Both the position numbers and the translations under genes were made by a program. This document shows, one piece after another, positions 5,179 through 30,052 of a stretch of DNA of 34,773 nt; positions within the stretch are counted from its first letter, which is position 1; the number at the start of each line of letters is the position of its first letter. Source of the stretch: a virus; the IMG/VR virus record IMGVR_UViG_3300006033_000068, positions 1-34,773 of that record. One strand, written 5' to 3'. The notes beneath the pieces were generated by a model. The model made no database searches. It was not told the DNA's origin and worked only from the letters and a program-made list of their open reading frames with translations.

Positions 5179-6945
5179 TTAGCTTCGCGCGATCCGATAG
5201 CGGTTGCTTGTTGTCGCGGCTTGCTCGGCCATCGCCGCGCCGCCATGAGCTGCAACAACCGCCTGAGCGGTGCCGAGCTGCTGCAATTCAGCGACGAGTC
5301 CAGCCGCGAGAATCGCGCCTTGCGCATTGACGTGGAAGGTCTGATTGACCCGCCCGCCCAGGTCATTGCCACGCGTGACCGAGACCTGTTCGCCGGGCGT
5401 CAGCCGCAGCGCCCGAATTTGACTATCGGTGCCGCCAAAGCCCCCGACCTGAAAGCCGCCGCCCGTGTCGAAGCCGATAAAGGACTTGAGGGCCGACATG
5501 ATGCCGCCCGACTTCGATAGGCCAGAGCCCTTGCTGAACAGGCTCGCTACACCGCCCGCGATCTTGTCGTCTAGAGACTGAGCAAAAATGCCGGCCAGCC
5601 AGTTGCCGAGCCCCTTAAGTCCACCATAGCGAAGCGCCTCAAGGCCGCCCCGTGTGGCGCTGTAGATTTGATCTGAGAAGGCCTTTTTGCTGGCCTCCAT
5701 GCCGTCGAGAATACCCTCGCTCACCATCGTCGAGATCGGCTCTTGCAGGCTCGCGGGGTTGATGATCGATTTGGTGAATTGCCGCTCAAACTCACGCGCC
5801 TGAAGTTCCGCGCGATGGGACTGCGACTGATAGAACAGCGACTCCCAGCTCTCCCCGTCCTTCTCAGCCCCTGCGGACTTCGATTTTGGCGAATTGGATT
5901 CGCCACCACCTCCGCCGCTGCCTCCGCCCGTATTGGTAGGCGCCAGATCCAAGGCGTTTTCTTGTTGCGCGCGGCGGATAGCTCCCATGGCCGCGTCGTT
6001 TTCGGCGATCTTTCCTTTTAAGAAATTCGCGAATGTTTTCATTCCAGGCAGTGCAGAAAGCTGCTCGGCCTCATGCAATTGACGGAACAGCTTTCCGCGT
6101 TGCTCGCCCAGCGTCTGAAGGGAGCGATTTTCCACCTTGTTAAATCGATCAATCACCCGCCCCAGCCAGTTCACGAGATCGGCGGCGGCGTTCTTCATGG
6201 TGACAAGGGCGGGCGTGAATGATGCCCCGAACGATATGCCCGCCATCTTGGAACGATCATCGGCGATTTCCATCTGACGGCTCATTTCCGCCAGCCGGTC
6301 AACAACACCGCCGTCCAGAACCAAGCCAAGATCCTGGGCCTTACCCATCATTTCCTGAATGCCGACGCTGCCTTGCTTGAGCATCGGCAGCAGCGCCTCA
6401 ATTCCGAACTTCTTCGCAAACTGAAGCTGCTCAGTGACGGTGCCGAGCGCGGCGATTTTATCTGCGATCACCGGCAGCGCATCCTCGACGGACTTGAAGC
6501 TTTTGATCTGCTCCTGGGTAATCCCCAGCGCCTCCATCGCCTTGCGGATCTTGCCGTCACCGACGCGCGTTTGCAGGGCGCCGATGGCTGCGGTCAGGCC
6601 AGACAGCGCATCCACGGCCTTGGTCACTTCGACATCGCTTTCGCCGGCCGCGAAGTTGAAGGCCTGCAAATATTCCGCCGAAACGCCCAGCTTGTAGGAT
6701 TGCGCTGCGATGTCGTCCGCGTACTTCGCCGCCTCCGCCGCCAGCCTCATGCCCACCGCAAACCCGTTGACCGCCAGCGTCGCCAGCGCCGCGCCAGACG
6801 CCAGCGGCGCCAAGCTCGCCGCCGTCGACATCAGCGCCGATTTCAGCCCCCCCGCCTTAACCTTGGCCCTATCCGCCCCGCTCTCGAATTGCGCGGTGTC
6901 CAGGCCCAGCACGGCGCGCAAGGCGCCGATGATCGATGAAGCCAT
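5179..6945 (-). CDS. Tail tape measure protein
   Basis: This 588-residue protein is the longest complete tail gene and directly follows the frameshifted tail chaperone, sharing one base (TGATG). An AGAGGA ribosome site lies upstream. It is rich in Ala, Gly, Leu and Lys with long helical stretches. A hydrophobic segment (residues ~38-65) may be the part inserted into the host membrane on infection, and a Gly/Ser run near residue 345 makes a flexible hinge. By the family rule of about 0.15 nm per residue, this length predicts a tail of roughly 90 nm, on the short side for a siphovirus. It controls tail length and sits inside the tube until DNA ejection. Confidence 0.88.
   Translation of the reverse strand: MASSIIGALRAVLGLDTAQFESGADRAKVKAGGLKSALMSTAASLAPLASGAALATLAVNGFAVGMRLAAEAAKYADDIAAQSYKLGVSAEYLQAFNFAAGESDVEVTKAVDALSGLTAAIGALQTRVGDGKIRKAMEALGITQEQIKSFKSVEDALPVIADKIAALGTVTEQLQFAKKFGIEALLPMLKQGSVGIQEMMGKAQDLGLVLDGGVVDRLAEMSRQMEIADDRSKMAGISFGASFTPALVTMKNAAADLVNWLGRVIDRFNKVENRSLQTLGEQRGKLFRQLHEAEQLSALPGMKTFANFLKGKIAENDAAMGAIRRAQQENALDLAPTNTGGGSGGGGGESNSPKSKSAGAEKDGESWESLFYQSQSHRAELQAREFERQFTKSIINPASLQEPISTMVSEGILDGMEASKKAFSDQIYSATRGGLEALRYGGLKGLGNWLAGIFAQSLDDKIAGGVASLFSKGSGLSKSGGIMSALKSFIGFDTGGGFQVGGFGGTDSQIRALRLTPGEQVSVTRGNDLGGRVNQTFHVNAQGAILAAGLVAELQQLGTAQAVVAAHGGAAMAEQAATTSNRYRIARS
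5889..5903. repeat. 15-bp palindrome copy in the tape-measure gene (one mismatch)
   Basis: GCGAATTGGATTCGC differs from the consensus GCGAACTGGATTCGC in one central base. The arms GCGAA/TTCGC are intact, and it contains GATTC. On the coding strand it encodes GESNSP in the Gly/Ser hinge. Confidence 0.75.
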
Positions 6946-7612
6946 CAGGGTTCCTCTGAAACTTGCCCGGCGTGGCCCAGCGCCCCGGCCAGGCGAGAGC
7001 GCAGCTCTTCCAGGCTTTTCGGGGCCGCCGGTCGGCTCAAGGCCTCGACGGTCAGGCTGGACAGGGGCGGCATCTTGTCCATGCGCCCCAGCACGGCGGT
7101 GTGCCAGGCCAGCCAGGCCCGCTGATCGTGCTGCTGTTCAAGCACGCGGGCGCGGGCGCGAAAGGTTGCGATCAGGCGACGAGGCGTCTGCGTCCAAAAG
7201 GCGTCAGGCGAGAGATCCAGCCCAACCCACCGGTCGAAAAGGCCCCACCAATCCCATTCGTAACGCGGTCGCTCGTCGCCTTCCGAGGGCGGTCGGTGCC
7301 ACCCTCCAATTCCGGGAAGGCAAGCATCAGGGCTTGCCCCATCAACGAGCCAGCCTTCATCAAGCCCAGGTGATCAAGCAGGCGGCCGGCGTCTTCCAGC
7401 GACACCTGCGGGTGATGATCCTGCAGGGCGGCCCAGAACGCGGCGCGCACCGTGGTGAAGGCAGCGTCGCCGCCAGACATCAGCTTGGCCATCTCGTCGG
7501 CGTCCTTGACCTCGGCCTCGATCAGGCAAAGGGCGTTGACCGACACCACCAGCCGCCAGGTCGCGCCGGCCGCCGAAACCCGGACAAACGGCGCGGGAGC
7601 GACCGGGATCAT
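6945..7612 (-). CDS. Tail assembly chaperone, -1 frameshift fusion product
   Basis: Reading the 0-frame from ATG 7612 and slipping by -1 gives an open frame to TGA at 6947-6945, which abuts the tape-measure start. The shifted part reads PSEGDERPRYEWDWWGLFDR, then a helical, Trp-rich tail ending VSEEP. This is the usual design of lambda gpG/gpGT and its relatives: a minority of ribosomes make the longer protein, whose extra domain contacts the tape measure. The -1 frame has no start codon of its own before 7145. The slip must occur upstream of about 7275; the G-rich stretch near 7295-7310 (GGAGGGTGG) is a candidate, but I cannot fix the exact codon pair. Confidence 0.75.
7172..7612 (-). CDS. 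Tail assembly chaperone, short (0-frame) product
   Basis: This 146-residue product begins at ATG 7612, overlapping the tail-tube stop as ATGA, and ends at TGA 7172. The first ~105 residues are a compact helical protein of the type placed between tail tube and tape measure in siphoviruses and GTAs. The last ~45 residues (after FPELEGG) are low-complexity, as expected of sequence read past a frameshift site. The protein coats the tape measure and recruits tail-tube subunits. The C-terminus read in the -1 frame is far more protein-like; see the fused entry. Confidence 0.8.
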   Translation of the reverse strand: MIPVAPAPFVRVSAAGATWRLVVSVNALCLIEAEVKDADEMAKLMSGGDAAFTTVRAAFWAALQDHHPQVSLEDAGRLLDHLGLMKAGSLMGQALMLAFPELEGGTDRPRKATSDRVTNGIGGAFSTGGLGWISRLTPFGRRRLVA

Positions 7613-8037
7613 GGCGCCACCGCCGCCCAGGTCGGCTTGCCCGAAACCTTGATCTTGACGCCGTAGACCATCTTGTCGTCCAGCGGCGTCGAGGGGCCGA
7701 TTTCGGTGATCAGGCCGGCCAGCGAAACGATTTCGGAAAACGGCGCTGGCAGTTCGATTTCATAGTCGTTCGGCGCGTCGGCGTCGAAATCCGTCTTGGC
7801 GCCGGCCGCGTGCAGGCCGCCGACCGGATAGTGCAGCGTCAGCGCAACCTCGCCGCCGTCACGCAGGCCGCTGATAAACTCACGATACTTGTCGGGGCTG
7901 CCGTGGTGGGTGGCGTCCTTGACCTCGCGGGTGACGGTGTTGGCCGTGATGTCGACCAGCTCACCCATGCTGGCGAAGGTCGTGGGCGCGGTGCGGCGAC
8001 GCACCACCACGCCAAAGGCGAGAGCGGCTCCAGTCAT
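7609..8037 (-). CDS. Major tail tube protein
   Basis: This 142-residue protein starts at ATG 8037 with a GGAG ribosome site nine bases upstream. It has the features of a gpV/GTA-type tube subunit: an early segment reading ASMGELVDITANTV, beta-strands throughout, and a motif on asymmetric subunit loops (DATHHGSPDKYREFISGL). It sits between the tail terminator and the tail chaperone, the standard position. It polymerises as hexameric rings around the tape measure to make a non-contractile tail. Confidence 0.82.
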   Translation of the reverse strand: MTGAALAFGVVVRRRTAPTTFASMGELVDITANTVTREVKDATHHGSPDKYREFISGLRDGGEVALTLHYPVGGLHAAGAKTDFDADAPNDYEIELPAPFSEIVSLAGLITEIGPSTPLDDKMVYGVKIKVSGKPTWAAVAP

Positions 8038-8063
8038 AGTTCAGTCTCCAATGTCAGAGGGGT

Positions 8064-8453: not shown

Positions 8454-8454
8454 G

Positions 8455-8931
8455 TCATCGCCCCATCTTGGCCAGACGCTTGAGGGCTCGCCGCTCGGCG
8501 CGCGCCACCGTCTTCTTGATTTCGTCCCACAGCAGTTGACCCAGCGCATCCAGAGCCGCGCGCCAGCCGTGTTCCCAGGCGGTGCGCAGCGACGGGCGCG
8601 GCGGGGTGTCCTCGGTTCCGAATTCCTGCAGGTGAGCCTGCGGCAAGCCACCCGAACCGACATAGACCTCAGCGAACGACTTCCGCTCGCTCTTGCGCGC
8701 CAAGACGGCTTGGCGCCGGGTCAACTTGGTCCCAACGCCGGAGCTGTCGCGCAGCGCGCCGGTCAACACGTGGGGCTGAAGGCGATCGATATAGTCGTCG
8801 GCGATCGGCTGGGCTGCCTTCGTGAGAGCGCGCCGGCCGACGCCGCGCGCCGTGACCTTGCTGCCCAGATCACCGAGGGCGACGTCGAGGTCGCGAAAGC
8901 CTTCCATGTCGATGGTGAGAGTCGGCTTCAC
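8455..8931 (-). CDS. HK97 gp10-like neck / tail completion protein
   Basis: The start is GTG 8931, overlapping the upstream stop as GTGA; longer starts would lie in the preceding gene. The 158-residue product (VKPTLTIDMEGFRDLDVALG at its start) has the family's hallmarks: a central basic helix, then YVGSGGLPQAHLQEFGTEDTP, matching the G-x-H-x-x-E-F-G-T pattern of HK97 gp10 relatives, and a charged C-terminal helix. These proteins act at the head-tail interface. Order within the connector block agrees. Confidence 0.82.
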   Translation of the reverse strand: MKPTLTIDMEGFRDLDVALGDLGSKVTARGVGRRALTKAAQPIADDYIDRLQPHVLTGALRDSSGVGTKLTRRQAVLARKSERKSFAEVYVGSGGLPQAHLQEFGTEDTPPRPSLRTAWEHGWRAALDALGQLLWDEIKKTVARAERRALKRLAKMGR

Positions 8932-9260
8932 GCCTGATGCTCCGCCCGCGCGGCGGCCGAGATCTCCAGCCCCTCGCGGCGTCCGATTTCCTTGGCCCCG
9001 ATAACGTCGAACTCGCGACCCTCGAACCTGACGCGCCAAGTCGGATCGACGTCCCCGCGCCAAAGGATTTGAAAGCGCGCCGTTATGGTCGCGCCGACCT
9101 CGCCGGCCCGAAACCGCTCCCCGTCACTGACCGGCTGATAACTGGACCAGACGGTGTCGCCGTCGGGCCAGGACTCGACGTCCGAATTCAGTTCGCCCTT
9201 GGCCAGCAGGCGGGGACACAAGGTGAGGCGCCGATCGCGCTTTCCGGCGGGCTGCATCAT
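8928..9260 (-). CDS. Head closure protein (head-tail adaptor)
   Basis: This 110-residue ORF opens with two Met codons (9260 and 9257) and overlaps the connector stop as ATGA. It is beta-rich: RDRRLTLCPRL at the N-terminus, a central VWSSYQPVSDGERFRAGEV segment, and RVRFEGREFDVIGAKEIGRR near the C-terminus. That last pattern is the conserved closing strand-turn of gpFII/SPP1 gp16-type stoppers. It seals the portal channel after packaging and binds the tail. The call comes from this pattern plus position. Confidence 0.78.
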   Translation of the reverse strand: MMQPAGKRDRRLTLCPRLLAKGELNSDVESWPDGDTVWSSYQPVSDGERFRAGEVGATITARFQILWRGDVDPTWRVRFEGREFDVIGAKEIGRREGLEISAAARAEHQA

Positions 9261-9829: not shown

Positions 9830-9832
9830 GGG

Positions 9833-10195
9833 TTAGGCCTCCGACCGACGAACGAGTTCGTCTTCGACGACCTTGACGGCCGCAACCTTGTCGGGGATCG
9901 GCGCGCCCGAGATCTTCTTCGCCAGAGCGCGAAGCGTGAACCAGGGCAGGTCGAGCCAGGCTTCCGGGATTTCGACCTCGCGGTCGTCGTCCTTGTCGGC
10001 GGCCAGATCGTCGATATGGCCGATGACAGCGCCTTCCTGGTTGGTCAGAACGCCGTCGTCGCCGAGATAGGCCGCCTTACCGCGTCGAACGAAGTGCAGC
10101 TCGGAAGCGGGCGAGCGATCATCCACGATGTCGCCCTTGGTGAAGACCTCGGGCGGCGTGCCGACCGAGTAGTCTTCCAGAAACAGGATCTTCAT
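9833..10195 (-). CDS. Head-operon protein of unknown function
   Basis: This 120-residue ORF starts at ATG 10195. The N-terminal ~50 residues look like a small beta barrel (KILFLEDYSVGTPPEVFTKG). The middle is strongly acidic (ADKDDDREVEI). The C-terminal ~40 residues form a helical pair (LDLPWFTLRALAKKISGAP) that resembles a SAP-type or HeH fold. I cannot assign a named family. It lies between a capsid-associated gene and the connector, so a head-assembly or accessory capsid role is plausible. Confidence 0.65.
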   Translation of the reverse strand: MKILFLEDYSVGTPPEVFTKGDIVDDRSPASELHFVRRGKAAYLGDDGVLTNQEGAVIGHIDDLAADKDDDREVEIPEAWLDLPWFTLRALAKKISGAPIPDKVAAVKVVEDELVRRSEA

Positions 10196-10238
10196 ATCAG
10201 CTTGTCCCTATTGCTGGGCCAGGTAGCGAAGCCGCCTC

Positions 10239-10691
10239 TTACGAGACGACTTCATCCACGGAGGCGAGGTTGTGGGACTTGCCGTCGTTGCGCCGGAAGT
10301 CGAAGCCCAGCACGATGGCGCTGGCGTCGGCGCCGGCGGTGGCCAGCGTCATCGACAGGCGCGCGAAGCGGAAGCCGTTGTTGAAGTCCAGATCGGCCGC
10401 GGTGACGTTGATCAGGGCTTGCTTGTTGTCGTCGGCCCCGGCCTGGGTCAGGTTGGTGATGGCCAGACCAGCGACGTCCTTGACGCCCGCGCCAGCGGCG
10501 TCGGTAGCCTGCTGGATCTTGGCGCTGAGAACGCCGGTTGCGACGAAATCGCCGGCTTGGATCACGGCCAGGGCCTTTTCGATCTCGGCGGTGTCCCACC
10601 AGGCCGTGGTTTGCGTGCCGGTGCCATAGGCGTCGGGGTCGATCACGCCAATGACGGCGCTACGCTGCGAGGGGTTCAGATTGCTGCCCAT
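10239..10691 (-). CDS. Capsid-associated protein, possible decoration protein
   Basis: This 150-residue ORF starts at ATG 10691 with an AAAGGAG ribosome site eight bases upstream. It directly follows the major capsid gene after a ~96-base gap. It is mildly acidic and rich in Ala, Asp, Thr and Gly, with a beta-strand pattern (FARLSMTLATAGADASAIVL) and no cysteine. Small abundant proteins right after the capsid gene are often decoration or head-fibre proteins. That is positional inference; I do not recognise the family. Confidence 0.6.
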   Translation of the reverse strand: MGSNLNPSQRSAVIGVIDPDAYGTGTQTTAWWDTAEIEKALAVIQAGDFVATGVLSAKIQQATDAAGAGVKDVAGLAITNLTQAGADDNKQALINVTAADLDFNNGFRFARLSMTLATAGADASAIVLGFDFRRNDGKSHNLASVDEVVS

Positions 10692-10728
10692 CGTCGGGCT
10701 CCTTTCAAGAAGAGGGTCAATCGCGCCG

Positions 10729-10751
10729 CCGATCCCGACCAGCGGGACCGG
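10729..10751 (-). other. Hairpin between major capsid gene and next gene
   Basis: CCGGTCCCG and CGGGATCGG (minus-strand sense) form a 9-bp stem with one G-U pair and a 5-base loop. It lies in the 96-base gap after the major capsid stop. No U-tract follows, so it is not a classic terminator. It could protect the capsid mRNA 3' end or lower downstream expression. Confidence 0.35.
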
Positions 10752-10787
10752 CGAACACGGGTGAAGGTCTATTCGGTCCGACGCGGG

Positions 10788-12089
10788 TTAGGCGCGGGCC
10801 GCCAGGCCGACGAAGTGGGACTTGGTGTTGGTGCTGTTAGGCATGGTGGCCGGAGCGCCCAGCACCGGCTGGCCGCCGATACGGAAGATCCAGCGGAAGG
10901 CCCGCAGGTTGTAGTCGAAGAACAGGTGGATGCTGTCGGCGAAGGTGACGCCGTTCTGCTTTTTGAAGGCGCGGTAGCCCTTCGGGTTGACGAACTGCAG
11001 ATCGCCCAGGTCGCCGACGGTGTTGGCGTGCTCGGTGAACAGGACGGGACGACCCAGCAGGGTGCCGCCCGGCGCGACTTGGAAGTTCGGGAACCACACC
11101 GGTTGGCCGGCTTCGTTCTTCAGGGCCATCAGTTGCGGCAGGGTGTCCGAATTGGCCAGCCAGGCCGCCTGCATCGGATTGATCATCCGGGCGTACATCT
11201 TGGCCACGTTCGGCGCGGTGATCGTGTCGGCGGCTTGGGCGGCTTCCTTGGCCACGGTGATCAGCGCGCCCGAGTTCATCCAGCCTTGCAGCTTCTCGAC
11301 GCCGTCGCCGCGCATGTAACCGTCGGCCGCCTTCCAGCGGATCGCGGCGGCGGATTCGGTCGTCAGCAGGGCTTGCAGACGCGGGGCGTCGGCCAGGGTG
11401 TCTTCATCGGCCAGCACGAAGGCGTACAGCTCATTGAGCTTCACCTCCCACGGCTTGAGGCCGGTGCGGCTGGTCAGCATCTGTGTGCCCTCGGTACGCC
11501 ACGCGGCTTGCACGCCGGTGGTGCCCCAAGGGGTAACCTCGGAACCCAGGCCGGTGACGCGGTTCGAACCGGTCGGCAGGGCGGCGATCAGGTCGAACAC
11601 CGGATCGTCGCTAGTGTCGTAGACCAGGCTGACGATCTCATCGCGGAACTCGGCCGGAACCAGGAACGAGCCAACCTCGTCGCCGTTGGTCATGATCGTA
11701 TTGGCCGGGGCAGCCAGGCGCGGGTCCATGGCGAACTGCGAACCGGCCTGCGGATTGGCCAGGCGAACGGCGGCGCCGAACTCGGCCACGCTGCGGAAGC
11801 CACTGGAGTTGTCGCGCGCACGCGGTTCGGCCAGGGGCGCGCCCGGCGGGCGGGCGGCGGGCGGCGCAGCGCCCGTCTGCGGGAACGACGGAACGGCCGA
11901 CAGCCGATCCTGCAGCGAACGCGCGGCGGTGATCTGGGCTTGCAGTTCGGTGAGGCGCGAGGCGTCGGCCGCGTCAGCGGTTTCCTCATCGGCCGTCAGA
12001 TCGCGGCCACCTTCGATGGCGGCTTGCAGACGAGCGGATTGGCGCTGGGCGATTTCCCGCGCCTCGGCCAGCAGTTGGGCCAAGTTCAT
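10788..12089 (-). CDS. Major capsid protein, HK97 fold
   Basis: This 433-residue protein starts at ATG 12089 behind an AAAGGA ribosome site. Residues ~1-65 form the coiled-coil scaffolding (delta) domain, followed by a Pro/Ala linker to ~90 where maturation cleavage is expected. The rest matches the HK97 coat fold: GSFLVPAEFRDEIVSLVYDT near 140, DEDTLADAPRLQALL in the spine region, and a C-terminal strand reading FRWIFRIGGQPVLGAP. It builds the icosahedral shell with the neighbouring protease acting on the delta domain. An 80-base leader with a small GCCGC stem lies upstream. Confidence 0.92.
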   Translation of the reverse strand: MNLAQLLAEAREIAQRQSARLQAAIEGGRDLTADEETADAADASRLTELQAQITAARSLQDRLSAVPSFPQTGAAPPAARPPGAPLAEPRARDNSSGFRSVAEFGAAVRLANPQAGSQFAMDPRLAAPANTIMTNGDEVGSFLVPAEFRDEIVSLVYDTSDDPVFDLIAALPTGSNRVTGLGSEVTPWGTTGVQAAWRTEGTQMLTSRTGLKPWEVKLNELYAFVLADEDTLADAPRLQALLTTESAAAIRWKAADGYMRGDGVEKLQGWMNSGALITVAKEAAQAADTITAPNVAKMYARMINPMQAAWLANSDTLPQLMALKNEAGQPVWFPNFQVAPGGTLLGRPVLFTEHANTVGDLGDLQFVNPKGYRAFKKQNGVTFADSIHLFFDYNLRAFRWIFRIGGQPVLGAPATMPNSTNTKSHFVGLAARA

Positions 12090-14277: not shown

Positions 14278-14489
14278 CAGGCCTTACCCTTGGCCGACAG
14301 GAACGCGCCGATGATCAGCAGCGCGCCCAGGACGATAAAACCGGCGGGGCGATAGACCAGGCCCGCGCCATAGGCCACGAAGCCCGCGCCCGCGAGGGCC
14401 GCGCCGTCCGTCGTGAGGCTCGGCGCGGCGCGCAGGATCGCGCGGCCGGCCGAGGCGAACTGGATTCGCCAGGGCGTCTTGTCGCTCAT
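14277..14489 (-). CDS. Small membrane protein between terminase and portal
   Basis: This 70-residue ORF starts at ATG 14489 (ATGA overlap with the terminase stop) and ends in TGATG overlap with the portal start. Two hydrophobic helices (residues ~26-44 and ~46-64, with the loop at YRPAG) give a membrane hairpin with a short basic C-terminus. Small membrane ORFs at this spot are common in HK97-like phages and GTAs, with no agreed role. A holin role would be guesswork. The coding sequence includes one copy of the 15-bp palindrome (encoding RIQFA). Confidence 0.75.
   Translation of the reverse strand: MSDKTPWRIQFASAGRAILRAAPSLTTDGAALAGAGFVAYGAGLVYRPAGFIVLGALLIIGAFLSAKGKA
14455..14469. repeat. 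15-bp palindrome copy (exact)
   Basis: GCGAACTGGATTCGC lies in the small membrane-protein gene and encodes RIQFA. The flank CCGAG before it is shared with the copy at 18375, so 20 bases match in all. Confidence 0.8.
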
Positions 14490-16207
14490 ACGAAGATGAT
14501 CCCGCGCTTCTCATAGACCGACTTGACCGGCCCGGTGTCCTTGGCGGCGATGCCCTCCGCCATGCACAGCGCGACGATCCCGTCGATGCGCATGGTGGAT
14601 TTGTCCTTGGACGGCTTGATGTTCCCCGCCGCGTCGGTTTCGATCGCGACGGCCTGGGCGTGGCGGCGGAGCAGCGGATGCCCGCCGTGGTGGAAGCCGT
14701 TCGACAGCACGTACCGCTCGACCGCCTTGGCTGGGGCGCTCATGCTCACGAACCCTTGGCCGTACAGCACGACCGGCAGTCCCTCGCCGTTCAGCTTCAC
14801 GTAGGTTTCCGACGCGTCGAAGCGGTCGATCGCCAAGCCGCCCTGACCGTCCGTGCGCTTCTCGTTGCGGAACGCGACCTTGAAGATCTCGGCGTCCTGC
14901 ATCGCGCGGGCGCGGATCGCTTCGTGGTCGATCACATTGCCCGGCGTGGTCAGCAGCGCGCCTTCCTTAACCAGCCGATCGTAAGGGACCTTGTCGCGCT
15001 TGGTGTGGTCCTTGATCAGGTCCGCCGGCTTCCAAAACCGGGCCAATACCGTGGGCACGTCTAGGCCCGGCTGCACCGGGAACCACCAGACCAGCGCCGA
15101 AAGATCCTGCACCGCCGAAAGGTCCAGCCCGCCGAAACAGCGCAGTCCCCGCAGCTTGTCTTCCAGGCCCTCCCAAGGCGTCGGCCCGACGCAATGGTCC
15201 CAGCCGAAGCGCTGACCGTTGTCGTCGACACCGTCGATCGGCAGCCAGCGCACCGCCTGTTCGGTCCACTGATTGAGCTTGTAGCGCCGGAAATCGTTCT
15301 CTAGGCGCGGGAGCTGCTGGGCCAGGCGGCACGCGTCCGCCATGGCTTCGAGTTTGACCGACACGCCGAGGTTCGGATTGGCCTTCGCCCAGGTCTCGGG
15401 CTTGGTCCAATCGTCGTCGGCGCCGGCGGCGTAGACCACGACGTGCGTGTCGGGCGCTTCGATCTCCCCGGTCAGGATCGCCTGACACTCGTCCCAGACT
15501 TCCTCGCCGTGCGAGCCCTTAACGCCCGCCGTGCTGATCAGCACTTCTAGCGGCTGGCGGCGCGCGGCGGCGCTGTCATGCACGAAGGTGTAGAGGTCGC
15601 CCGAACGCCATTCGTGGATCTCGTCGCCGATCAGGCCCGACATGTTCAGCCCGTGCTTGCCGGCGGGCTTGCCCGACAGCGGGCGGAAACTGGCGTTGAG
15701 CTGCGGGCAATAGATCGCCGGCTTCATGCACTCCAGCGACCGCGACAGGGTCGGGCTATAGGCGACCATCGTGGCCGCCTTGTTGAAGACGATCGAGGCC
15801 TGTTCCTTTTCGGCCGCGATCGAGAACACCTGGCCGCCGGGCTCGGCGTCGCCCAGCAGCATCAGGATCGCGATCCCTGCAGCCAGTTCGGTCTTGCCGT
15901 TCTTCCGCGCCACCCACACGAACACGCGGCGGAACCGCCGCGTCCCGTCCGCCCGCTTCCACCCGAAGGTGGGACGAACGATGTCGTGATCCTGCCAGGC
16001 CTCAAGGACGAAGGGGCGACCGGCCCACTCGCCCTCGGTCAGGCAAAGGTGGTTCGGAAAGAACGCGGCGGCCTTCTCCGCAGCGGTCTCGTCGTACCAG
16101 AAAACGCCGTCGCGCCAGACGCCGTCGGCCGCATCCCACCAGGCGTTGGGGAACAGCCGCAGGGCAGCCGGCCGCGCCGGCTCAGCCCACTTGCGCTTGG
16201 CGGACAT
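14486..16207 (-). CDS. Terminase large subunit
   Basis: This 573-residue protein belongs to the Terminase_1 family used by HK97-like phages. The N-terminal ATPase has an atypical Walker A reading ARKNGKTEL (100-108) and a Walker B reading GLIGDEIHEW (191-200, with the catalytic Glu after Asp). The C-terminal RNase H-like nuclease begins at GGLDLSAVQDL (359-369). Further acidic residues lie at AIDRFDASETY and IDGIVALCMAEG. It drives ATP-dependent DNA packing into the prohead and cuts concatemers. A close HNH neighbour suggests a cos-type mechanism, as in HK97. Confidence 0.95.
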   Translation of the reverse strand: MSAKRKWAEPARPAALRLFPNAWWDAADGVWRDGVFWYDETAAEKAAAFFPNHLCLTEGEWAGRPFVLEAWQDHDIVRPTFGWKRADGTRRFRRVFVWVARKNGKTELAAGIAILMLLGDAEPGGQVFSIAAEKEQASIVFNKAATMVAYSPTLSRSLECMKPAIYCPQLNASFRPLSGKPAGKHGLNMSGLIGDEIHEWRSGDLYTFVHDSAAARRQPLEVLISTAGVKGSHGEEVWDECQAILTGEIEAPDTHVVVYAAGADDDWTKPETWAKANPNLGVSVKLEAMADACRLAQQLPRLENDFRRYKLNQWTEQAVRWLPIDGVDDNGQRFGWDHCVGPTPWEGLEDKLRGLRCFGGLDLSAVQDLSALVWWFPVQPGLDVPTVLARFWKPADLIKDHTKRDKVPYDRLVKEGALLTTPGNVIDHEAIRARAMQDAEIFKVAFRNEKRTDGQGGLAIDRFDASETYVKLNGEGLPVVLYGQGFVSMSAPAKAVERYVLSNGFHHGGHPLLRRHAQAVAIETDAAGNIKPSKDKSTMRIDGIVALCMAEGIAAKDTGPVKSVYEKRGIIFV

Positions 16208-16210: not shown

Positions 16211-16771
16211 TTAGTTCAGAAACCCGACCGGCCCAGCGCTCGGCGCGGGCTTGGCGGCTTGGGTCGGCTTGGCGGCCGGGTCGTCCTCGCGCTTCGGCGC
16301 CGGGAACAGGTCGCCCGAGGCGCCGGTGTTCATGCGCGCAGCCATGATGCGTTGACGCTCGGCCGGGTTCAGACCGAACCGGTCTTCGGCCGCCAGCAGT
16401 TGGCGCTCCAGGCGGTCGGCAATCAGGAAGGCCGGATGCGCGCGCCGGAGCTTGCCGTGGGCGCTTTCCGACTCGTACGTCTCGCCCTCCTTGTCGAGCT
16501 GGGCGACGGCCTTCAGCCAGCGGGCGAAGTTGCGGCAGTAGCGGGCGAACGCGGCGGTGTCGGCCTCGGTCAGCAGCTTGGCCTGCACGAGCACTTCGGC
16601 CCGGTCGTTCCAGATCTTGAGGCCATCGGCCGTCAGCCAGTCGGGAGCCTTCACGCCACCGATGACGACACCCTGGATGGCGGTCGCGGCCAGCACCGGA
16701 TTGCGCTTGCTGCGAACCGGATTCGTCTGGTCGCGAACAGCCTGCGATTTGGGCTTCGGGCCTCGGGCCAT
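16211..16771 (-). CDS. Terminase small subunit (P27 family)
   Basis: The start is ATG 16771 (MARGPKPKSQAV), chosen because a GGAGG site lies nine bases upstream and the family usually begins this way; earlier in-frame starts overlap the HNH gene. The 186-residue product has a basic N-terminal part, the helical P27 core with DWLTADGLKIWNDRAEVLVQ (~44-63), and a Pro/Ala/Lys-rich C-tail. It binds the packaging site and hands DNA to the large subunit, which follows four bases later. A variant palindrome copy (16712-16726) lies in the coding region. Confidence 0.88.
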   Translation of the reverse strand: MARGPKPKSQAVRDQTNPVRSKRNPVLAATAIQGVVIGGVKAPDWLTADGLKIWNDRAEVLVQAKLLTEADTAAFARYCRNFARWLKAVAQLDKEGETYESESAHGKLRRAHPAFLIADRLERQLLAAEDRFGLNPAERQRIMAARMNTGASGDLFPAPKREDDPAAKPTQAAKPAPSAGPVGFLN

Positions 16772-16895
16772 ATGGCGGGCCTCCAAAAAAAGTTTCCCGA
16801 AACTCTCGAAAAGATACGCGTGCTTACCCCGCCGGTCCTTCGGCTTAAGGTTGGTAGCTTTAGACCCCCCCCCACCCATTGGGTCGGTCGAGGGG

Positions 16896-17303
16896 TCAAG
16901 CGCGATCGGTTTTCGAACGTTCGATTTCGCCGAGGGTCCGAAGGCCAAGGCGGCTGGCCAGGTCGTCGAGGGCCATGCGGCCCATGCGCTCAAGCCGTTG
17001 CTTGAACCCGTTGTGGCAGTCGTCGCACGAGCTGACCCAGAGTTCCTTCACCCAGAACAGCCAGCGGTCGCCCTTGTGCGGGTAGAGGTGGTCGACGAGC
17101 GTGGCCGCGACCACTTCGCCGGCCAGGTCGCAGTAGCGACACAGCGGGTCGTGGTTGAGGTGGCCCTTCGCGGCCTTGTCCCACTTGCTGTCATAGCCTC
17201 GCGCCCGCGCCGATCCCCGTCGCTGGTCAGCCTCGCGGTTCTGTTCGCTGCGGGCTTGGCGTTGAGGGGACCGAAAGGTCGGAGGCATCACCGGCAAGGT
17301 CAC
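16896..17303 (-). CDS. HNH endonuclease of the packaging module
   Basis: The start used is GTG 17303; ATG 17288 (MPPTFRSPQRQ) is as good and looks like the family's usual beginning. The product has the full HNH set: Cys55-x2-Cys58, Asp71-His72 in LVDHLYPH, and Cys93-x2-Cys96-His97 in SSCDDCHNG. HNH proteins next to terminase, such as HK97 gp74, support DNA cleavage at cos and morphogenesis. It is the first gene of the late operon after a 267-base leader. Confidence 0.88.
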   Translation of the reverse strand: MTLPVMPPTFRSPQRQARSEQNREADQRRGSARARGYDSKWDKAAKGHLNHDPLCRYCDLAGEVVAATLVDHLYPHKGDRWLFWVKELWVSSCDDCHNGFKQRLERMGRMALDDLASRLGLRTLGEIERSKTDRA

Positions 17304-18182: not shown

Positions 18183-19174
18183 CCGACTTTCCCGACTTTC
18201 ACGCCCAAATCCGCCAACACACCGGCGGGCCTCGCCTCGCTCAACTTCGCGGCCCGCCGCTCGATACGCGGGTCGATCACCCGCTTGCCCTCATCCCAGG
18301 CGCAAGGGTCCAGCCACGACGTAACCCAGGCCTCGCCCATGGCCCCGAACAGGGCGTTTCGAACCTCGACCGAGGCGAACTGGATTCGCGTCGTGACGAC
18401 CGGAGCCCGTTGGTCAGCCCTTGGGAGGTGCGTCTTCCACCGGCCATCGGCGAGGAAGGTGTGAGGGGCTTTCGGCTTCTGCCCCGACTGGCCGTGCGCC
18501 TTGGGCTTGCCGGCATAGGCCAGCGCACCGGCCCGCACCTCGGCCAGCGGTGCTCCGGCAGAGACCTCGGCCGCGACAGCTTCGGCGACCTTGCGCTCGC
18601 TGCTGTGTTCGCGGCCCGCCTCCGGCCAAGCCGCCCAGATCTCCGCAACGACCTCGTCGATCGCGCCCGCACGCTGAGAGAGTTCGTCAGAACTCTCTAG
18701 GGTTAAAGAGTCCTGGTTCAAGAATGCCCCTACACGTGGGAGGGGAGGCCCCTGTACGTGGGAGTGGTCCCCCCCACTCCCACGTGAGGGGGGGGGACCA
18801 CTCCCACGTGAGGGGGGGTGCGACAGTTTTCCGGTCTTCCCACCGGACGACTTTCCGCGCTTGTGACCGCCCACCATGTCGAGATCGTCGGCCAGGTCGG
18901 CGCGCTCGCAATAGGTCAGGATGATGCGGTTGGATGACTTTCCGCCATCCTTGCGGACGCGTTCTTCGCGCCGCAGGAACCCGGCTTCCTCGGCCTCCTT
19001 GATCGACTTTCGGGCTTGGCTGACCGAACACCGCATCTTCTCGGCGATCGTCTCAACGGCCGGGAAACACGACCCGTCGGGACCCGCCCACTGGCCGAGC
19101 ACGTACAGCAGCAGCGTCACGTAAGCGTTCTTGGTGTCGAGAGTTTCGACAGCGGTAAGGGCTTGGAAGCTCAT
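18179..19174 (-). CDS. Winged-helix replication protein (lambda O / DnaD-like role)
   Basis: The start is ATG 19174, in ATGA overlap with the upstream gene; a start at 19252 would lie inside that gene. The 331-residue product has a winged-helix domain at ~13-87 (TKNAYVTLLLYVLGQWAGPD, SCFPAVETIAEKMRCSVSQA, then a wing). A basic, Gly/Pro-rich linker with 8-residue repeats (~105-155) joins it to a helical C-terminal domain. This is the layout of phage initiators such as lambda O: DNA-binding N-domain, linker, then a helicase-loading C-domain. The linker DNA contains the iteron-like cluster. No separate loader or helicase gene lies in this window. Confidence 0.7.
   Translation of the reverse strand: MSFQALTAVETLDTKNAYVTLLLYVLGQWAGPDGSCFPAVETIAEKMRCSVSQARKSIKEAEEAGFLRREERVRKDGGKSSNRIILTYCERADLADDLDMVGGHKRGKSSGGKTGKLSHPPSRGSGPPPSRGSGGDHSHVQGPPLPRVGAFLNQDSLTLESSDELSQRAGAIDEVVAEIWAAWPEAGREHSSERKVAEAVAAEVSAGAPLAEVRAGALAYAGKPKAHGQSGQKPKAPHTFLADGRWKTHLPRADQRAPVVTTRIQFASVEVRNALFGAMGEAWVTSWLDPCAWDEGKRVIDPRIERRAAKLSEARPAGVLADLGVKVGKVG
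18375..18389. repeat. 15-bp palindrome copy (exact)
   Basis: GCGAACTGGATTCGC lies in the 3' third of the replication gene and encodes RIQFA, as does the copy at 14455. The arms and the GATTC site are intact. Confidence 0.8.
18733..18818. repeat. CACGTG-centred repeat cluster, candidate replication origin
   Basis: Four copies of CACGTGGGAG or its complement lie at 18733, 18755 (first base T), 18777 and 18801. Copies two and three form a 12-bp inverted repeat (18756-18767 with 18774-18785). Copies three and four are direct repeats with a 24-bp period, separated by a G9 run. The cluster lies in the linker-coding part of the replication gene, as the lambda origin lies within O. Origin function is inferred. 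Confidence 0.5.
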
Positions 19175-21098: not shown

Positions 21099-22195
21099 GC
21101 GGCGAGCCGCCCGCGCTCCAGCGCCACGCGCCGGTGAATGTCGGCCACGTACTTGGCCTCGCGTTCGATCAGGATCGCGCCCATGCCCTCACGCATCGCC
21201 GCCGAGGCCGTTGAGCCGCTGCCGGCGAACGGATCGAGCACGACGCCGCCCGGTGGCGTGACCAGACGGCAGAGCCATTGCATCAGGGCGACCGGCTTGA
21301 CAGTCGGGTGCTTGGACCCCGCGCGATCGGCCTTGCTGGCCTTGGCGCAGTAGAAGAACCGGGCCGCCGACCCGCTGTCGCCGCGCGGCGCATAGGCCAA
21401 GGGCGGCCCCATGTCGCCGAGAATCCCCTTTGACGGCCGCGCCCGCCCGGTCGCATTGAGCTGCCCGCGCTGCCCGCCGGCAACGGGAAATGCCGCGACT
21501 ACATCTTCAGATCCATCGTGCGCGACGTTCGCCGGCCAGCGGCCAAGATCGTTCGCCACCAAGGCGGACGTCGCCTCGGAATCGGTTTTCCAGATCCCGC
21601 CGCGCGGCGTTTCCCATTTAGCGACCGCGTCACCATCGAGCGTAGGAACGCGGCAGCTATCAATGTTCAATGCGCCCGTTCCCCATTTCCGCGCATTGGC
21701 GACCAACGACCCGTCCAGCGGCTTGCGCGCCAGGACGAAAGGCTCGCACGCGGGCTTGAGCGCCGACCCATGCTTCTCGCCGCTACGGTCGTGATTGTGG
21801 CTCTTGGGAAAGCCGGTCCCGTACAGCCAAGAGATCATGTCGCGGATCTCGAAACCGGCGTCTTCCACCGCGCAGGCTAGGCGGTGATAGGTCCGCGTGG
21901 CGCTGGCCGCGACGAGGTGGCCGCCGGGCTTCAGAACCCGCCAAACCTCGCGCCAGAACGCCGGGTCGAAAGCGACCTCGCCGGTATCCCAGCGCTCGCC
22001 CATGAAGCCCGACGAAGCGCGCGCATAGACGCCCGACGCGCCGGCCATCGCCGGAGCCGAACCGTCCTTGCCGAACCGCTTACCGATCGAGACCAGGGCG
22101 TAAGGCGGATCGCACACGACGCTGTCGACTGAATTATCAGCCAGGGTCCGCAGCACGTCGCGGCTGTCGCCATGCAGGACAATGACGTTCGTCAT
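21095..22195 (-). CDS. DNA methyltransferase, beta-type motif order
   Basis: This 366-residue SAM-dependent enzyme has the catalytic DPPY motif at 29-32 and the SAM-binding DPFAGSG at 321-327. That order (IV before I) and the DPPY form mark an N6-adenine or N4-cytosine methylase of the beta class. The middle reads VWRVLKPGGHLVAASA and a long variable target-recognition part. There is no restriction partner nearby. It may protect phage DNA or mark promoters. It shares ATGA overlaps with the GcrA-like gene upstream and the primase downstream. The target sequence cannot be read from the protein. Confidence 0.9.
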   Translation of the reverse strand: MTNVIVLHGDSRDVLRTLADNSVDSVVCDPPYALVSIGKRFGKDGSAPAMAGASGVYARASSGFMGERWDTGEVAFDPAFWREVWRVLKPGGHLVAASATRTYHRLACAVEDAGFEIRDMISWLYGTGFPKSHNHDRSGEKHGSALKPACEPFVLARKPLDGSLVANARKWGTGALNIDSCRVPTLDGDAVAKWETPRGGIWKTDSEATSALVANDLGRWPANVAHDGSEDVVAAFPVAGGQRGQLNATGRARPSKGILGDMGPPLAYAPRGDSGSAARFFYCAKASKADRAGSKHPTVKPVALMQWLCRLVTPPGGVVLDPFAGSGSTASAAMREGMGAILIEREAKYVADIHRRVALERGRLAA

Positions 22196-22608
22196 GCGCA
22201 GCGCCTCGCCGCCGCGTCAGCCGAAGCCGGGCCGCCATGACGACCACCGTTGAACTCGACCTGACCAGCGGGCGCGGTGTAACCCATGGCCCGTTCCCAG
22301 CCCGACAGGCCCGCCGCGATCCCCGCCGGCAGGACGCGCACGCGCCCCGCCGCGATGGCCGCCGCGATCAGCTCGCCGTCCGACCCGCCGCTGATCACCG
22401 CCCGAGTCCTGCGCGGGCGCTTGGCCACGGCGTGTCGCGCATCGCGACGCTCGGCCCCCAAGCCCAGGCGGCTGGCCTTACGCACGAGGGTGCGCACCGA
22501 GCAGCCCAAAGCCGTCGCGGCGGACTCAGCCGAAACGTCCGGCGATGCGTAAAGCGTCCGCAACCGCAGAACGCGCGCGTCGCTCCATTCGAAAGCCGCC
22601 ACCTTCAT
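22192..22608 (-). CDS. GcrA-like helix-turn-helix protein
   Basis: This 138-residue ORF starts at ATG 22608. The first 50 residues read FEWSDARVLRLRTLY, SAESAATALG and RKASRLGLG. These line up with the start of GcrA (W-T/S-D-x-R-V, L-x-x-L-W/Y, A-x-x-L-G, K-x-x-R-L-G-L). GcrA is the alphaproteobacterial cell-cycle activator that binds near methylated GANTC and the sigma-70 subunit. The basic stretch after the HTH matches, but the C-terminal CKWP-type sigma-binding motif of GcrA is absent. It is coupled by ATGA to a DNA methyltransferase gene. Family is likely; target and role are inference. Confidence 0.6.
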   Translation of the reverse strand: MKVAAFEWSDARVLRLRTLYASPDVSAESAATALGCSVRTLVRKASRLGLGAERRDARHAVAKRPRRTRAVISGGSDGELIAAAIAAGRVRVLPAGIAAGLSGWERAMGYTAPAGQVEFNGGRHGGPASADAAARRCA

Positions 22609-24816: not shown

Positions 24817-24831
24817 ATTGCAAACTGCAAT
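24817..24831. promoter_or_regulatory. Operator O1 (perfect inverted repeat)
   Basis: ATTGCA-AAC-TGCAAT is a perfect 6+6 inverted repeat with a 3-base spacer. It ends nine bases before the Cro-like start codon, so a bound repressor would block the early leftward transcript. Confidence 0.75.
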
Positions 24832-24901: not shown

Positions 24902-25231
24902 ATGCGGGATGACGAGAAAGATTATCAGACAGCGAACAACCTGCGAGCCTGGCGGGAGCACCGCGAGCTGTCCCAGACAGAGTTAGCTAAGCGCATCGAT
25001 ACGACACAAGCGGTCATCAGCCTGCTGGAAAAGGGCGATCGCCAACTGTCGACGAAGTGGCTTTATCGCCTCGCACCCGCGCTCGGTATCAGCCCAGGCT
25101 TCCTTGTCGATTACGATCCTCGCACCCTCGACACGTCGACCCTTGAACTGATCGAGACGGCCTCTGCAATTTCGAAGGAAGACCGTCCGACTGCGATAAA
25201 GGTCCTGAAGGGCTTCTTGAAATCGGCCTGA
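24902..25231 (+). CDS. CI-like repressor, short form
   Basis: The start is ATG 24902 (MRDDEKDYQ); the longer frame upstream would run through the operators. The 109-residue product has an XRE-type HTH at ~12-67: NLRAWREHRELSQTELAKRI, TTQAVISLLEKGDRQ. The rest is a short helical tail. It lacks an S24 auto-cleavage domain, so it is not LexA-like; induction would need another route, such as an antirepressor or protease. It should bind the ATTGCA operators and hold the lysogenic state. The lipoprotein gene follows on the same strand. Confidence 0.8.
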   Translation: MRDDEKDYQTANNLRAWREHRELSQTELAKRIDTTQAVISLLEKGDRQLSTKWLYRLAPALGISPGFLVDYDPRTLDTSTLELIETASAISKEDRPTAIKVLKGFLKSA

Positions 25232-25741: not shown

Positions 25742-25756
25742 GCGAATCCAGTTCGC
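25742..25756. repeat. 15-bp palindrome copy (intergenic, exact)
   Basis: GCGAATCCAGTTCGC is the exact complement of the copies at 14455 and 18375. It lies between the lipoprotein stop and the second operator pair, and is the only intergenic copy. It contains a GAATC (GANTC) site. Confidence 0.8.
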
Positions 25757-25825: not shown

Positions 25826-25855
25826 GTCCGCTCCGCCACCCAAGCGGAGCCAGCC

Positions 25856-25975
25856 GTGCGCCCTCAAATTCATCCTCATGGCGAACTGAATTCGCCGCCC
25901 CAGCCTGAAAACGGCTGGCTGCTGGTGTTCATCGCCGCGCTCATCGTGATCGCGGCCATAGGCGGGCTGCAATGA
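25856..25975 (+). CDS. 39-residue single-pass membrane protein
   Basis: The frame opens at GTG 25856, about 30 bases from the second operator, and ends in TGATG overlap with the next frame. After a Pro/His-rich start and NGW, it has one strong hydrophobic helix, LLVFIAALIVIAAIGGL. It would be the first gene of the rightward operon. It is too short for a family match. The membrane helix and the coupled stop support it. A copy of the palindrome (one mismatch) lies in its coding sequence. Confidence 0.5.
   Translation: MRPQIHPHGELNSPPQPENGWLLVFIAALIVIAAIGGLQ
25881..25895. repeat. 15-bp palindrome copy (one mismatch)
   Basis: GCGAACTGAATTCGC differs from the consensus by one base (G to A), which removes the GANTC site and makes a GAATTC. 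It lies in the small membrane-protein gene, encoding GELNSP, 125 bases after the intergenic copy. Confidence 0.75.
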
Positions 25976-26983: not shown

Positions 26984-26998
26984 AAGGACCACCGGCCC

Positions 26999-27346
26999 AT
27001 GTCTGTTCTGTTCACCGACGTTCTTCGTACCACCCAAAACGGCAAGATCGTCGACGCCCTGACCGAAGCCTTGCAGGAGTGCAACGCGGCGGCCATCGCA
27101 TCCCGCAAGCCCGCCGAGCTGACCTTCAAGGTCAAGGTCATTCCCGACGCCACCGGCGGTCGCCAGACCGGTCTGGAATTCGACATTTCCACCAAGACCC
27201 CGCGCGCCAAGCTGCCCAAGGGCATCTTCTGGATGTCCGACACCTACGACCTGCTGCGCGCAGATCCCGACCAACGGGAAATGTTCACCGACGCCGGTGA
27301 CGGCCGCGCCTACACGCCGCCCCGCGCGGTCGACGGCAGCCGCTAG
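26999..27346 (+). CDS. Phage protein of unknown function, upstream of DUF2303
   Basis: This 115-residue protein starts at ATG 26999 behind an AAAGGA ribosome site. Key parts are LRTTQNGKIVDALTEALQEC (~9-28), a beta segment AELTFKVKVIPDATGG, and a Pro-rich end (YTPPRAVDGSR). I recall proteins like this next to DUF2303 genes in other phages, with no assigned role. It is probably part of the same recombination or DNA-handling block. Confidence 0.7.
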   Translation: MSVLFTDVLRTTQNGKIVDALTEALQECNAAAIASRKPAELTFKVKVIPDATGGRQTGLEFDISTKTPRAKLPKGIFWMSDTYDLLRADPDQREMFTDAGDGRAYTPPRAVDGSR

Positions 27347-27400
27347 GCCACGCCTCCGCACCCTTTCCCCTTAAGCCCCTCACCACCCGAGAGACCGACA

Positions 27401-28240: not shown

Positions 28241-28245
28241 GACAC

Positions 28246-28272
28246 CCGGCCGCCGCCCCCGTGGGCGGCCGG
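28246..28272 (+). other. Hairpin just after the DUF2303 gene
   Basis: CCGGCCGCC and GGCGGCCGG form a perfect 9-bp stem around a 9-base loop, six bases after the stop codon. No U-tract follows. It may work with the second hairpin, 5 bases on. Confidence 0.55.
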
Positions 28273-28277
28273 TGACT

Positions 28278-28320
28278 GGCTCCCCGAGCGTCCCGCTATC
28301 CGCGCTCGGGGAGCCTCTTT
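28278..28320 (+). terminator. Intrinsic terminator between DUF2303 and ParB-like genes
   Basis: GGCTCCCCGAGCG (28278-28290) and CGCTCGGGGAGCC (28303-28315) give a perfect 13-bp stem with a 12-base loop, followed by TCTTTCCC. The stem is very stable and the tail is pyrimidine-rich, so it probably acts as a partial terminator. The ParB-like gene starts 29 bases later; read-through or an own promoter is needed. Confidence 0.7.
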
Positions 28321-28348
28321 CCCTCCCAAAATCAAGGACCCCTCGGCA

Positions 28349-30052
28349 ATGCACGCCCAGACTCCGCCTGTAGAGACGCAGCCCGTCGTCACCCTCGAAC
28401 TGCTCCAGCGCATCGCGCCTTCCGAAAAGCTGCTGCGCGCCATACAAGCCGGCGGCTGGACCAACCTCGCCCAACTGGCCGAACAAGCCGACCGACCGCG
28501 CGGCAACTTGGCCCGCGATCTTGGTCGCCTGGAAGAGGCGGGCCTCGTCGATCATGCCGCCGGCAAGGACAAGCCCGCCCTGACCGCCGAGGCGGTCGCC
28601 GGTCTGGCCGCCGCCGACCGCGCGACGAATCCAGTTCGCGGCGAAGGCCGGATCTGGATCCACGGCGACCTGACGCCCAACCCGGATCAGCCGCGCAAGG
28701 TGTTCAAGGATGAGGATATCGCCGAACTGGCGGCGTCCATCCTGTCGGGCGAGCAGCTCCAGAACCTTCTGGCTCGCCCCAACCCGCGCCAGCCCGGCCC
28801 GGAACTGCAGATCGTTGGCGGCGAGCGGCGCTGGCGCGCCATGGGTCTGCTGATCGCGCGGGGGGATTGGCCTGCTGACCATCCGATTGAGGTCAAGGTC
28901 CGCGACCTGACCGACGCCCAGGTCGACAGCCTGGCGCTCGTCGAGAACATGCAACGCGCCAACCTGACGCTGATGGAAGAGGCCCGCGCCTTCGTTCGCC
29001 TCAGCAAGGTTCACGGCTGGACCACGGCCGAAATCGCCAAGGCGATCGATAAGGACGCCCGCGTGGTTCAACTGCGCATCAACCTGCTGGAGCTGAACGG
29101 CGGCCTGACCGAGGAAGAACAGGCCCAGCTCGACGCAGGCGAGATCACCTATACCAAGGCCCTGGACCTGCTGCGCAACCGGCCCAAGCCGCTGGAGCTG
29201 CGGCCCCTGCAGGCCCTGATCCTCGCCGAGGTCCTCGACGCCGCCGCTGGCGACTCCGCACCCGCTTACTTCCGCAAGGCCGAGTGCGCACCCGACGCCG
29301 CCACGTCGAGCCACACCGCCGACTATCTTTCGACGGCTGGCTTCCTGGTCTTCGAAGGCCCCGACCATTTCACCGGGGGCTTTACGGCTCGCTTCGCCGA
29401 TTTCCAGATCTTCGATCGCTTCGTTGATCAATACCCTGGCCTGGCCTCAACCGACCGTTCGTCCACGCTGTTGAGCATCCGCGCGACCGCGCTGGACGCC
29501 GACGAGGCGGAGCGCCTGGACAGCGAGGGCAGCTATGACACGCCTTGGCTCAACGGCCCCTTCGAGCTGACCGAGGAAGGCAAGGCCATCGTCGAACAGC
29601 GCCGCCAGGAACAGGCGGAGAATGCCGTTAAGGTCGCCGAGAGCGACGCCCAGCGCGCCCTGCGCATGCGCCGCCTCTCGGAAGCCGACGCCCGCTCGAC
29701 CGACATGCTCGCCGCCATGGCCAAGCCCCGCGTCGGTGCCGCGATCGACGGGTTCAGTGACGTGCTGGACGCCGCCGAAGCGCCGCTGCCGTGGTCGGTC
29801 GGCCAGGTCGATGGCTGGACAAGGATCATCGACGCCACCGGCAAGCCCGTCGAGTTCCCCACCTATGCCGGGTCTCCGGCTGTGTCGATCCGCCTCAAGC
29901 TGGTCATGGCCGCCGTCAACGCCGCCGCCGGCCATGCGCCCGTGATGGTCGAGACCACGGCCGAGCCGGAAGGCGACGCCGAGGACGACGACGAAGAAAC
30001 AGCCGAGGAGGGCGACGACGCCCCCCCCCTGACGACCTCGAAACCCGCATAG
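28349..30052 (+). CDS. ParB-like protein with N-terminal winged helix; ParA absent
   Basis: This 567-residue protein starts at ATG 28349. An N-terminal winged-helix-like unit (~15-80, LLRAIQAGGWTNLAQLAEQA) precedes a ParB core. The core has NPDQPRK (111-117), then the CTP-binding GERRWRA (158-164), and VENMQRANLTLMEEARAF (198-215). An HTH-like unit with HGWTTAEIAKAIDKDARVVQ follows. The long C-terminal part is unknown and ends in an acidic tail (EGDAEDDDEETAEEGDD). ParB family proteins bind a palindrome and load as CTP-gated clamps. There is no ParA next to it. Its own gene contains a copy of the 15-bp palindrome. The tail reading depends on a C9 run; a longer product to 30117 is likely too. 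Confidence 0.8.
   Translation: MHAQTPPVETQPVVTLELLQRIAPSEKLLRAIQAGGWTNLAQLAEQADRPRGNLARDLGRLEEAGLVDHAAGKDKPALTAEAVAGLAAADRATNPVRGEGRIWIHGDLTPNPDQPRKVFKDEDIAELAASILSGEQLQNLLARPNPRQPGPELQIVGGERRWRAMGLLIARGDWPADHPIEVKVRDLTDAQVDSLALVENMQRANLTLMEEARAFVRLSKVHGWTTAEIAKAIDKDARVVQLRINLLELNGGLTEEEQAQLDAGEITYTKALDLLRNRPKPLELRPLQALILAEVLDAAAGDSAPAYFRKAECAPDAATSSHTADYLSTAGFLVFEGPDHFTGGFTARFADFQIFDRFVDQYPGLASTDRSSTLLSIRATALDADEAERLDSEGSYDTPWLNGPFELTEEGKAIVEQRRQEQAENAVKVAESDAQRALRMRRLSEADARSTDMLAAMAKPRVGAAIDGFSDVLDAAEAPLPWSVGQVDGWTRIIDATGKPVEFPTYAGSPAVSIRLKLVMAAVNAAAGHAPVMVETTAEPEGDAEDDDEETAEEGDDAPPLTTSKPA
28625..28639. repeat. 15-bp palindrome copy in the ParB-like gene (one mismatch)
   Basis: ACGAATCCAGTTCGC has one arm base changed. 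It lies between the winged-helix and ParB parts (residues ~92-97, ATNPVR). It holds GAATC and is about 2.7 kb from the two copies near the second promoter. Confidence 0.75.

Follow-up and report, generated by a model that had tools for sequence, protein, structure and literature searches.

The DNA analysed here is the virus record IMGVR_UViG_3300006033_000068 over its whole length of 34,773 bp (hereafter the window), which is the genome of a tailed temperate phage. It encodes portal, protease, major head, tape-measure, primase and replication initiator proteins, together with a terminase, an integrase and a protein of the ParB family. A 15-bp palindrome is scattered through it, and its core, the base pairs between the arms, differs among related phages. 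We propose that the palindromes are probably (at about 0.83, judging from sequence comparison) the recognition or loading sites of the phage's own orphan ParB-family protein. The features concerned are the following.

5889..5903, site GCGAATTGGATTCGC, within the tape-measure gene
9182..9196, site CCGAATTCAGTTCGC, at codon 24 of the gene 8928-9260; close relatives have their site just 5' of that gene
14455..14469, site GCGAACTGGATTCGC, at the terminase/portal junction, where relatives have sites with other cores
14486-16207, terminase
16712..16726, site GCGAACCGGATTCGT, at codon 92 of the gene 16211-16993; relative L184 has a site at the same codon with core CC-S-GG
18375..18389, site GCGAACTGGATTCGC, at codon 291 of the replication-initiation gene; five relatives have a site at the same codon with other cores
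25742..25756, site GCGAATCCAGTTCGC, in the intergenic stretch that precedes the rightward early genes
25881..25895, site GCGAACTGAATTCGC, in the leader of the rightward early genes, without GANTC
28349..30052, plus strand, gene of the ParB-like protein (567 aa), identified by Pfam, PDB sequence matches and AlphaFold2/Foldseek
28625..28639, site ACGAATCCAGTTCGC, at about codon 95 of the parB-like gene; four relatives have a site at the same codon, its core being CG-S-CG or closely similar
33448-34626, integrase

The palindrome array in the window is real. A first-pass annotation had listed seven sites, and all of them are there: three match its palindrome exactly (14455, 18375 and 25742), three with one mismatch (5889, 25881 and 28625) and one with two (16712). 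The site at 9182-9196 (CCGAATTCAGTTCGC), absent from that list, is an eighth. The consensus RCGAAYYSRRTTCGY has eight matches in the window at no more than one mismatch and no others, together spanning 22.7 kb. In 100 dinucleotide shuffles, RCGAAYYSRRTTCGY sites averaged 0.32 and never exceeded 2, against the 8 observed. Related patterns are also in excess, with 5 copies of GCGAA-N5-TTCGC where 0.15 were expected and 8 of CGAAYYSRRTTCG where 0.06 were expected. Search effort is allowed for, since 60 shuffles were scored for all palindromes with 5-bp arms and at least two A/T per arm, and none ever reached 5 copies. Moreover, the window shows a spacer preference, CGAA-N5-TTCG being present in 10 copies against 0-3 for other spacers; the weak additional matches to this pattern at 7722 and 15601 may be due to chance. 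As the annotation had also stated, the sites sit in differing reading frames. Protein constraint therefore does not explain them.

The protein encoded at 28349..30052 is a member of the ParB family, composed of an N-terminal winged helix similar to MarR/SlyA, a ParB_N CTPase domain, a ParB-type helix-turn-helix (HTH) domain and a long helix with a C-terminal region. Pfam matches are PF02195 (E 2e-14), PF17762 and PF12840, and PDB sequence matches include ParB, Noc, KorB and SlyA; the HTH that follows ParB_N is assigned by PF17762 and by the matches with ParB, Noc and KorB. The AlphaFold2 model (pLDDT 85.5) retrieved ParB, Noc and KorB in Foldseek. The CTPase boxes GERRWRA and ENMQR are intact in the window protein and show small variations in its relatives. 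One relative (L243:3675-6122, in G008) is a phage ParB-MucR fusion carrying a ROS/MucR domain (PF05443, E 1.5e-34) at its C-terminus; G009 and G390 hold possible further fusions by a short-motif match, the domain scan having covered G008 only.

Scans of viral and genome collections for the exact 15-mer returned single matches at near the chance rate, because the core differs from phage to phage. The arms, by contrast, follow the protein. Most records retrieved by ParB similarity contain between 3 and 11 copies (3-11) of CGAAC-N3-GTTCG but nearly none at other spacers, while the pattern was absent from the counted records of terminase relatives without this ParB. Median site density was 1.83 per 10 kb in 30 records with a ParB relative versus 0.20 in 20 records of terminase relatives having no such ParB or a divergent one (Mann-Whitney p = 1e-7, indicative only, as the records are related to one another). 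An unbiased scan for gapped palindromes ranked CGAAC-N3-GTTCG, or its GAAC core, at the top at most of the closer ParB loci. In G008 and G009, whose terminases are only 37% identical, a ParB relative and the sites are both present. Among the window genes tested, parB was the only one found in 25 of 25 motif-bearing records, which had been chosen for ParB; the next best was found in 17.

To look at bacterial hosts, we examined the genus in which a terminase relative of 71% identity occurs (61 genomes), using the reversed pattern as a control. A few exceptions aside, GCGAA-N5-TTCGC was no more frequent in these genomes than its control. Two exceptional genomes were inspected (G133 and G158), and their surplus sites lie mostly inside prophage-like regions with ParB. 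On contig C5 of G133, 10 of 11 sites fall within 111-149 kb beside a ParB-like gene and have mostly core CC-S-GG. On contig C25, 8 sites fall within 8.7-43.8 kb beside a separate ParB-like gene, all of them with core CG-S-CG. Thus, this one bacterial genome contains two prophage-like regions with two distinct site cores. In G158, a site cluster at C13:206-238 kb adjoins its ParB.

The core varies together with the protein. It is CC-S-GG in 15 phages, CG-S-CG in 9, YT-G-RA in the window and CCGCG in one further record. ParB proteins of CC-S-GG and CG-S-CG phages have non-overlapping residues at 4 of 176 alignment columns; three of these cluster directly after the HTH, and one of the three aligns with G201 of Caulobacter ParB. 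At the position equivalent to 201, the CC class has R, K or S, the CG class H, E, D, A or T, and the window protein T. It has been described that residue 201 sets the preference of ParB and Noc near the dyad (Jalal 2020, PMC7383237). Class predictions from ParB residues were recorded for new prophages in bacterial genomes before their flanks were read. The predicted class was correct in all six prophages with at least two sites (CC in L412, L413 and L414; CG in L417, L418 and L420), the prediction for L417 being based on the 201 position alone, as its second residue is of the other type. The class of L416 was left open at prediction. A 5-residue insertion in ParB was also tried as the sole determinant of CC-S-GG; it was perfect in the first 25 records, failed in two independently found prophages and was rejected.

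Site positions are conserved even where cores are not. A site at codon 291 of the replication-initiator gene (repO) is shared by the window, G011, L184, G012, G409 and G410, which have three cores among them. One at about codon 95 of parB is common to the window, G012, G409, G410 and G387, and eight phages have one at the terminase/portal junction. At each of these positions the site bears the core of its own phage. As the sites are dispersed, a wholesale change of core by one recombination with a foreign parB is impossible. In addition, gaps between sites are more regular than random in 26 records (mean coefficient of variation 0.48 versus 0.81; median gap 4.1 kb), and 0 of 4,000 pooled simulation runs were as low, a figure inflated by the relatedness of the records. 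Small clusters also exist in some phages, as G400 (L351-L352) and G397 (L348-L350) have a few sites just 15-42 bp apart.

These comparisons support the view that the sites are phage-borne, co-occur and co-vary with ParB, are conserved in position and are evenly spaced. Binding by the ParB-like protein was among the readings that the first-pass annotation had offered, and co-occurrence, co-variation of the core with the DNA-binding domain and the prediction test all argue strongly for it.

Several observations weigh against this reading. Four ParB-selected records (G388, G389, G398 and G401) have only 0-4 matches, so that some ParB relatives may use other sites. Some motif-bearing records have no ParB, all of them fragments of 5-19 kb. 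The YT-G-RA class rests on one phage, as this core was seen solely in the window and one near-identical contig. Among the new prophages, L419 has zero sites, L415 has a single site that is off-class, and L411 has one site only, although of the predicted type. The initial insertion rule failed and had to be replaced by the class-separating residues. Finally, the phages share ancestry, and the ParB tree shows few switches of class: one independent pair when well-supported branches are counted, and four when every branch is. Fisher's p of 3e-7 consequently overstates independence.

Other palindromes were observed at related loci. The fairly close ParB relatives L261 (G388), L262 (G389), L273 (G398) and L276 (G401) have no clear CGAAC-N3-GTTCG array, and L261 has instead GTTTCAC-N5-GTGAAAC-like repeats that recall parS half-sites. 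Near more distant phage ParB-like genes (L295, L316, L319 and L329), the over-represented gapped palindromes are GTAAC-N7-GTTAC, ACGCT-N2-AGCGT, TGATT-N4-AATCA and ACCGA-N2-TCGGT. These may be targets of further ParB classes, or else operators of repressors.

The sites might, with a rather small probability, form a dispersed centromere. Phage N15 with SopB uses such a centromere to partition its extrachromosomal prophage, and the presence of a ParB-family protein together with many scattered palindromes speaks for this reading. However, no ParA-family ATPase (PF13614) was found in 25 related records (the window itself was outside that search, and the control genomes all matched), and the ParA-binding motif LG[K/R]GL is absent from the window protein and from 26 relatives. 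Moreover, the window encodes an integrase, and related arrays lie on contigs of up to 3-4 Mb, that is, in integrated prophages. As there is no ParA, plasmid partition is unlikely.

Three further features of the window bear on the other candidate readers of the sites.

22192..22608, minus strand, GcrA-like protein, below the Pfam cut-off
24817..24831, ATTGCAAACTGCAAT, candidate CI/Cro operator by inferred function
24902..25231, plus strand, gene of a CI-like HTH_3 repressor

It is improbable that the sites are operators or stoperators by which a CI/Cro-type immunity repressor, or another HTH protein, silences the prophage at many places. The sites at 25742 and 25881 do lie on either side of the promoter region for the rightward early genes, and the scatter of the sites resembles that of Cluster A stoperators (PMC6550527). 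However, the CI/Cro region has a distinct palindrome of its own, ATTGCA-N3-TGCAAT (ATTGCANNNTGCAAT). The identity of the 15-bp sites as CI/Cro operators was rejected on this difference, and the CI-like repressor is not a likely reader of them because its neighbourhood holds a different palindrome. Furthermore, of the 25 motif-bearing records only 10 have a CI-like homologue and none has Cro, and the cores co-vary with ParB residues. Phage stoperators are also asymmetric and oriented with transcription (PMC4351075), unlike the 15-bp sites, which are palindromic. A half-match related to the CI/Cro palindrome, ATTGCAATTTGCAT, lies at about 25776, between the sites at 25742 and 25881. Located at the CI/Cro-like genes and before the rightward early genes, ATTGCAAACTGCAAT and ATTGCAATTTGCAT are probable operators of the CI-like repressor.

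A similarly faint chance attaches to the N-terminal winged helix of the ParB-like protein as the reader, in place of its ParB HTH. This domain does resemble MarR/SlyA DNA-binding regulators. However, the L255 (G409) and L256 (G410) proteins are strongly unlike there, and have ParB_N, the ParB HTH and the core CG-S-CG in common. As the core is identical in spite of differing winged helices, it is likely to be read by the ParB HTH; the class-separating columns are, besides, located after that domain.

The first-pass annotation had also noted that all but one of its sites contain GANTC, as is the case in 6 of 7, and had raised a GcrA-like protein reading CcrM-methylated GANTC. This is practically discounted, as GANTC is incidental to the core of the window phage: it is in 6 of 10 CGAA-N5-TTCG sites of the window, but it is missing from the homologous sites, and the sites generally, of nearly every relative. 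In addition, just 1 of the 25 motif-bearing records has a GcrA-like homologue. Its third suggestion, that the host lineage carries an iterated palindrome with no bearing on phage functions, is hardly tenable either: iterated palindromes of this sort are known from other bacteria, but the host count revealed a low genome-wide density and no general enrichment in the 61 genomes, the surplus in G133 and G158 is mostly in ParB-bearing prophages, and the core class varies among prophages within one genome.

Returning to recognition by the phage ParB, we hypothesize that a ParB dimer would read the half-sites RCGAAYY through its central HTH domain. The base pairs adjacent to the dyad would be read by the segment after the HTH, including Thr269 (equivalent to ParB G201 and Noc R186). 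If it behaves like its homologues ParB, Noc and KorB, the bound dimer could next take up CTP, close into a clamp and slide off the site. With a loading site about every 4 kb, clamps might be able to reach all of the phage genome. Physical binding, CTP switching, sliding and the downstream effect are what we infer by this route.

The system resembles KorB/O_B of plasmid RK2 (PMC11790492), in which a ParB-fold CTPase with an HTH acts on many odd-length palindromic operators across one mobile replicon (8 sites in the window, 3-11 in relatives), and KorB structures are among the Foldseek matches. KorB acts on promoters up to 1.5 kb away, and long-range control by its sliding clamp has been demonstrated (PMC11790492). 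It differs in that the O_B sequence of RK2 (TTTAGCSGCTAAA) has no match in the window at up to 2 mismatches, the phage proteins bear an N-terminal winged helix and their sites are evenly spaced through structural genes. KorB also has a KorA partner, and none was identified for the phage protein. Bacillus Noc with its binding sites, NBS (PMC8429893, PMC7383237), is likewise a ParB paralogue without ParA that has many sites over the chromosome and dyad specificity via residue 201; Noc itself is chromosomal, with 16-bp NBS, membrane binding and division control. Partition by ParABS shares ParB_N with CTP boxes and the ParB HTH. Unlike ParABS, the phage system has no ParA and no ParA-binding motif, the window has no match to parS (TGTTTCACGTGAAACA) at up to 3 mismatches, and the sites are genome-wide instead of clustered near the origin. 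The phage system is probably not a partition system, and its sites are neither parS nor O_B. By analogy, clamp function in long-range gene control, as in KorB, or in genome marking, as in Noc, is more likely than partition. KorB-like transcription control is a possible downstream function, which we propose only tentatively.

Cluster O mycobacteriophages have more than 30 dyad-symmetric 17-bp repeats with a 3-bp centre, in and between genes, and a ParB-like protein; the function of the repeats was unexplained and the authors did not link them with that protein (PMC4351075). We used the genomes of Catdawg and Firecracker for comparison. In Catdawg (L459), the ParB-like gene (10179-11687, with a ParB_N domain) is surrounded by copies of TGTTCGG-N3-CCGAACA, 25 of them within 27 kb, and its product may be the binder of the Cluster O repeats. 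Unlike in the window, the Cluster O arms are unrelated, the array is much denser and the phages are not obviously temperate. A 2025 survey describes orphan prophage proteins of ParB-CTPase fold without a ParA-binding motif (PMC12704722), and the window protein is of this type. The available passages of the survey cover nucleotide binding and domain fusions, and give no DNA sites for such phage proteins. Orphan prophage ParB-like proteins and Cluster O palindromes were already known; in the open-access literature, however, no DNA target of such a phage ParB came to light, nor any report connecting an array of this sort with its ParB.

Orphan ParB-like proteins are common on phages. For dozens of phages, the target can now be read from sequence, including the base pairs that each ParB should prefer. 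Matched pairs of protein and sites are directly testable and are candidate orthogonal tools of the ParB-parS type. The palindromes of Cluster O mycobacteriophages, hitherto unexplained, also gain a concrete hypothesis, and the results suggest selection maintaining protein-binding sites within genes at regular intervals. It is tempting to propose, although we would not give it an even chance, that widespread temperate phages of alphaproteobacteria each mark or coat their genome with their own ParB clamp, loaded from an array of gene-embedded sites about 4 kb apart. Distinct pairs could share one cell, and the clamp would organise phage DNA or identify it as self, not partition it. If true, such self-marking could serve long-range regulation, control of replication or packaging, or protection.

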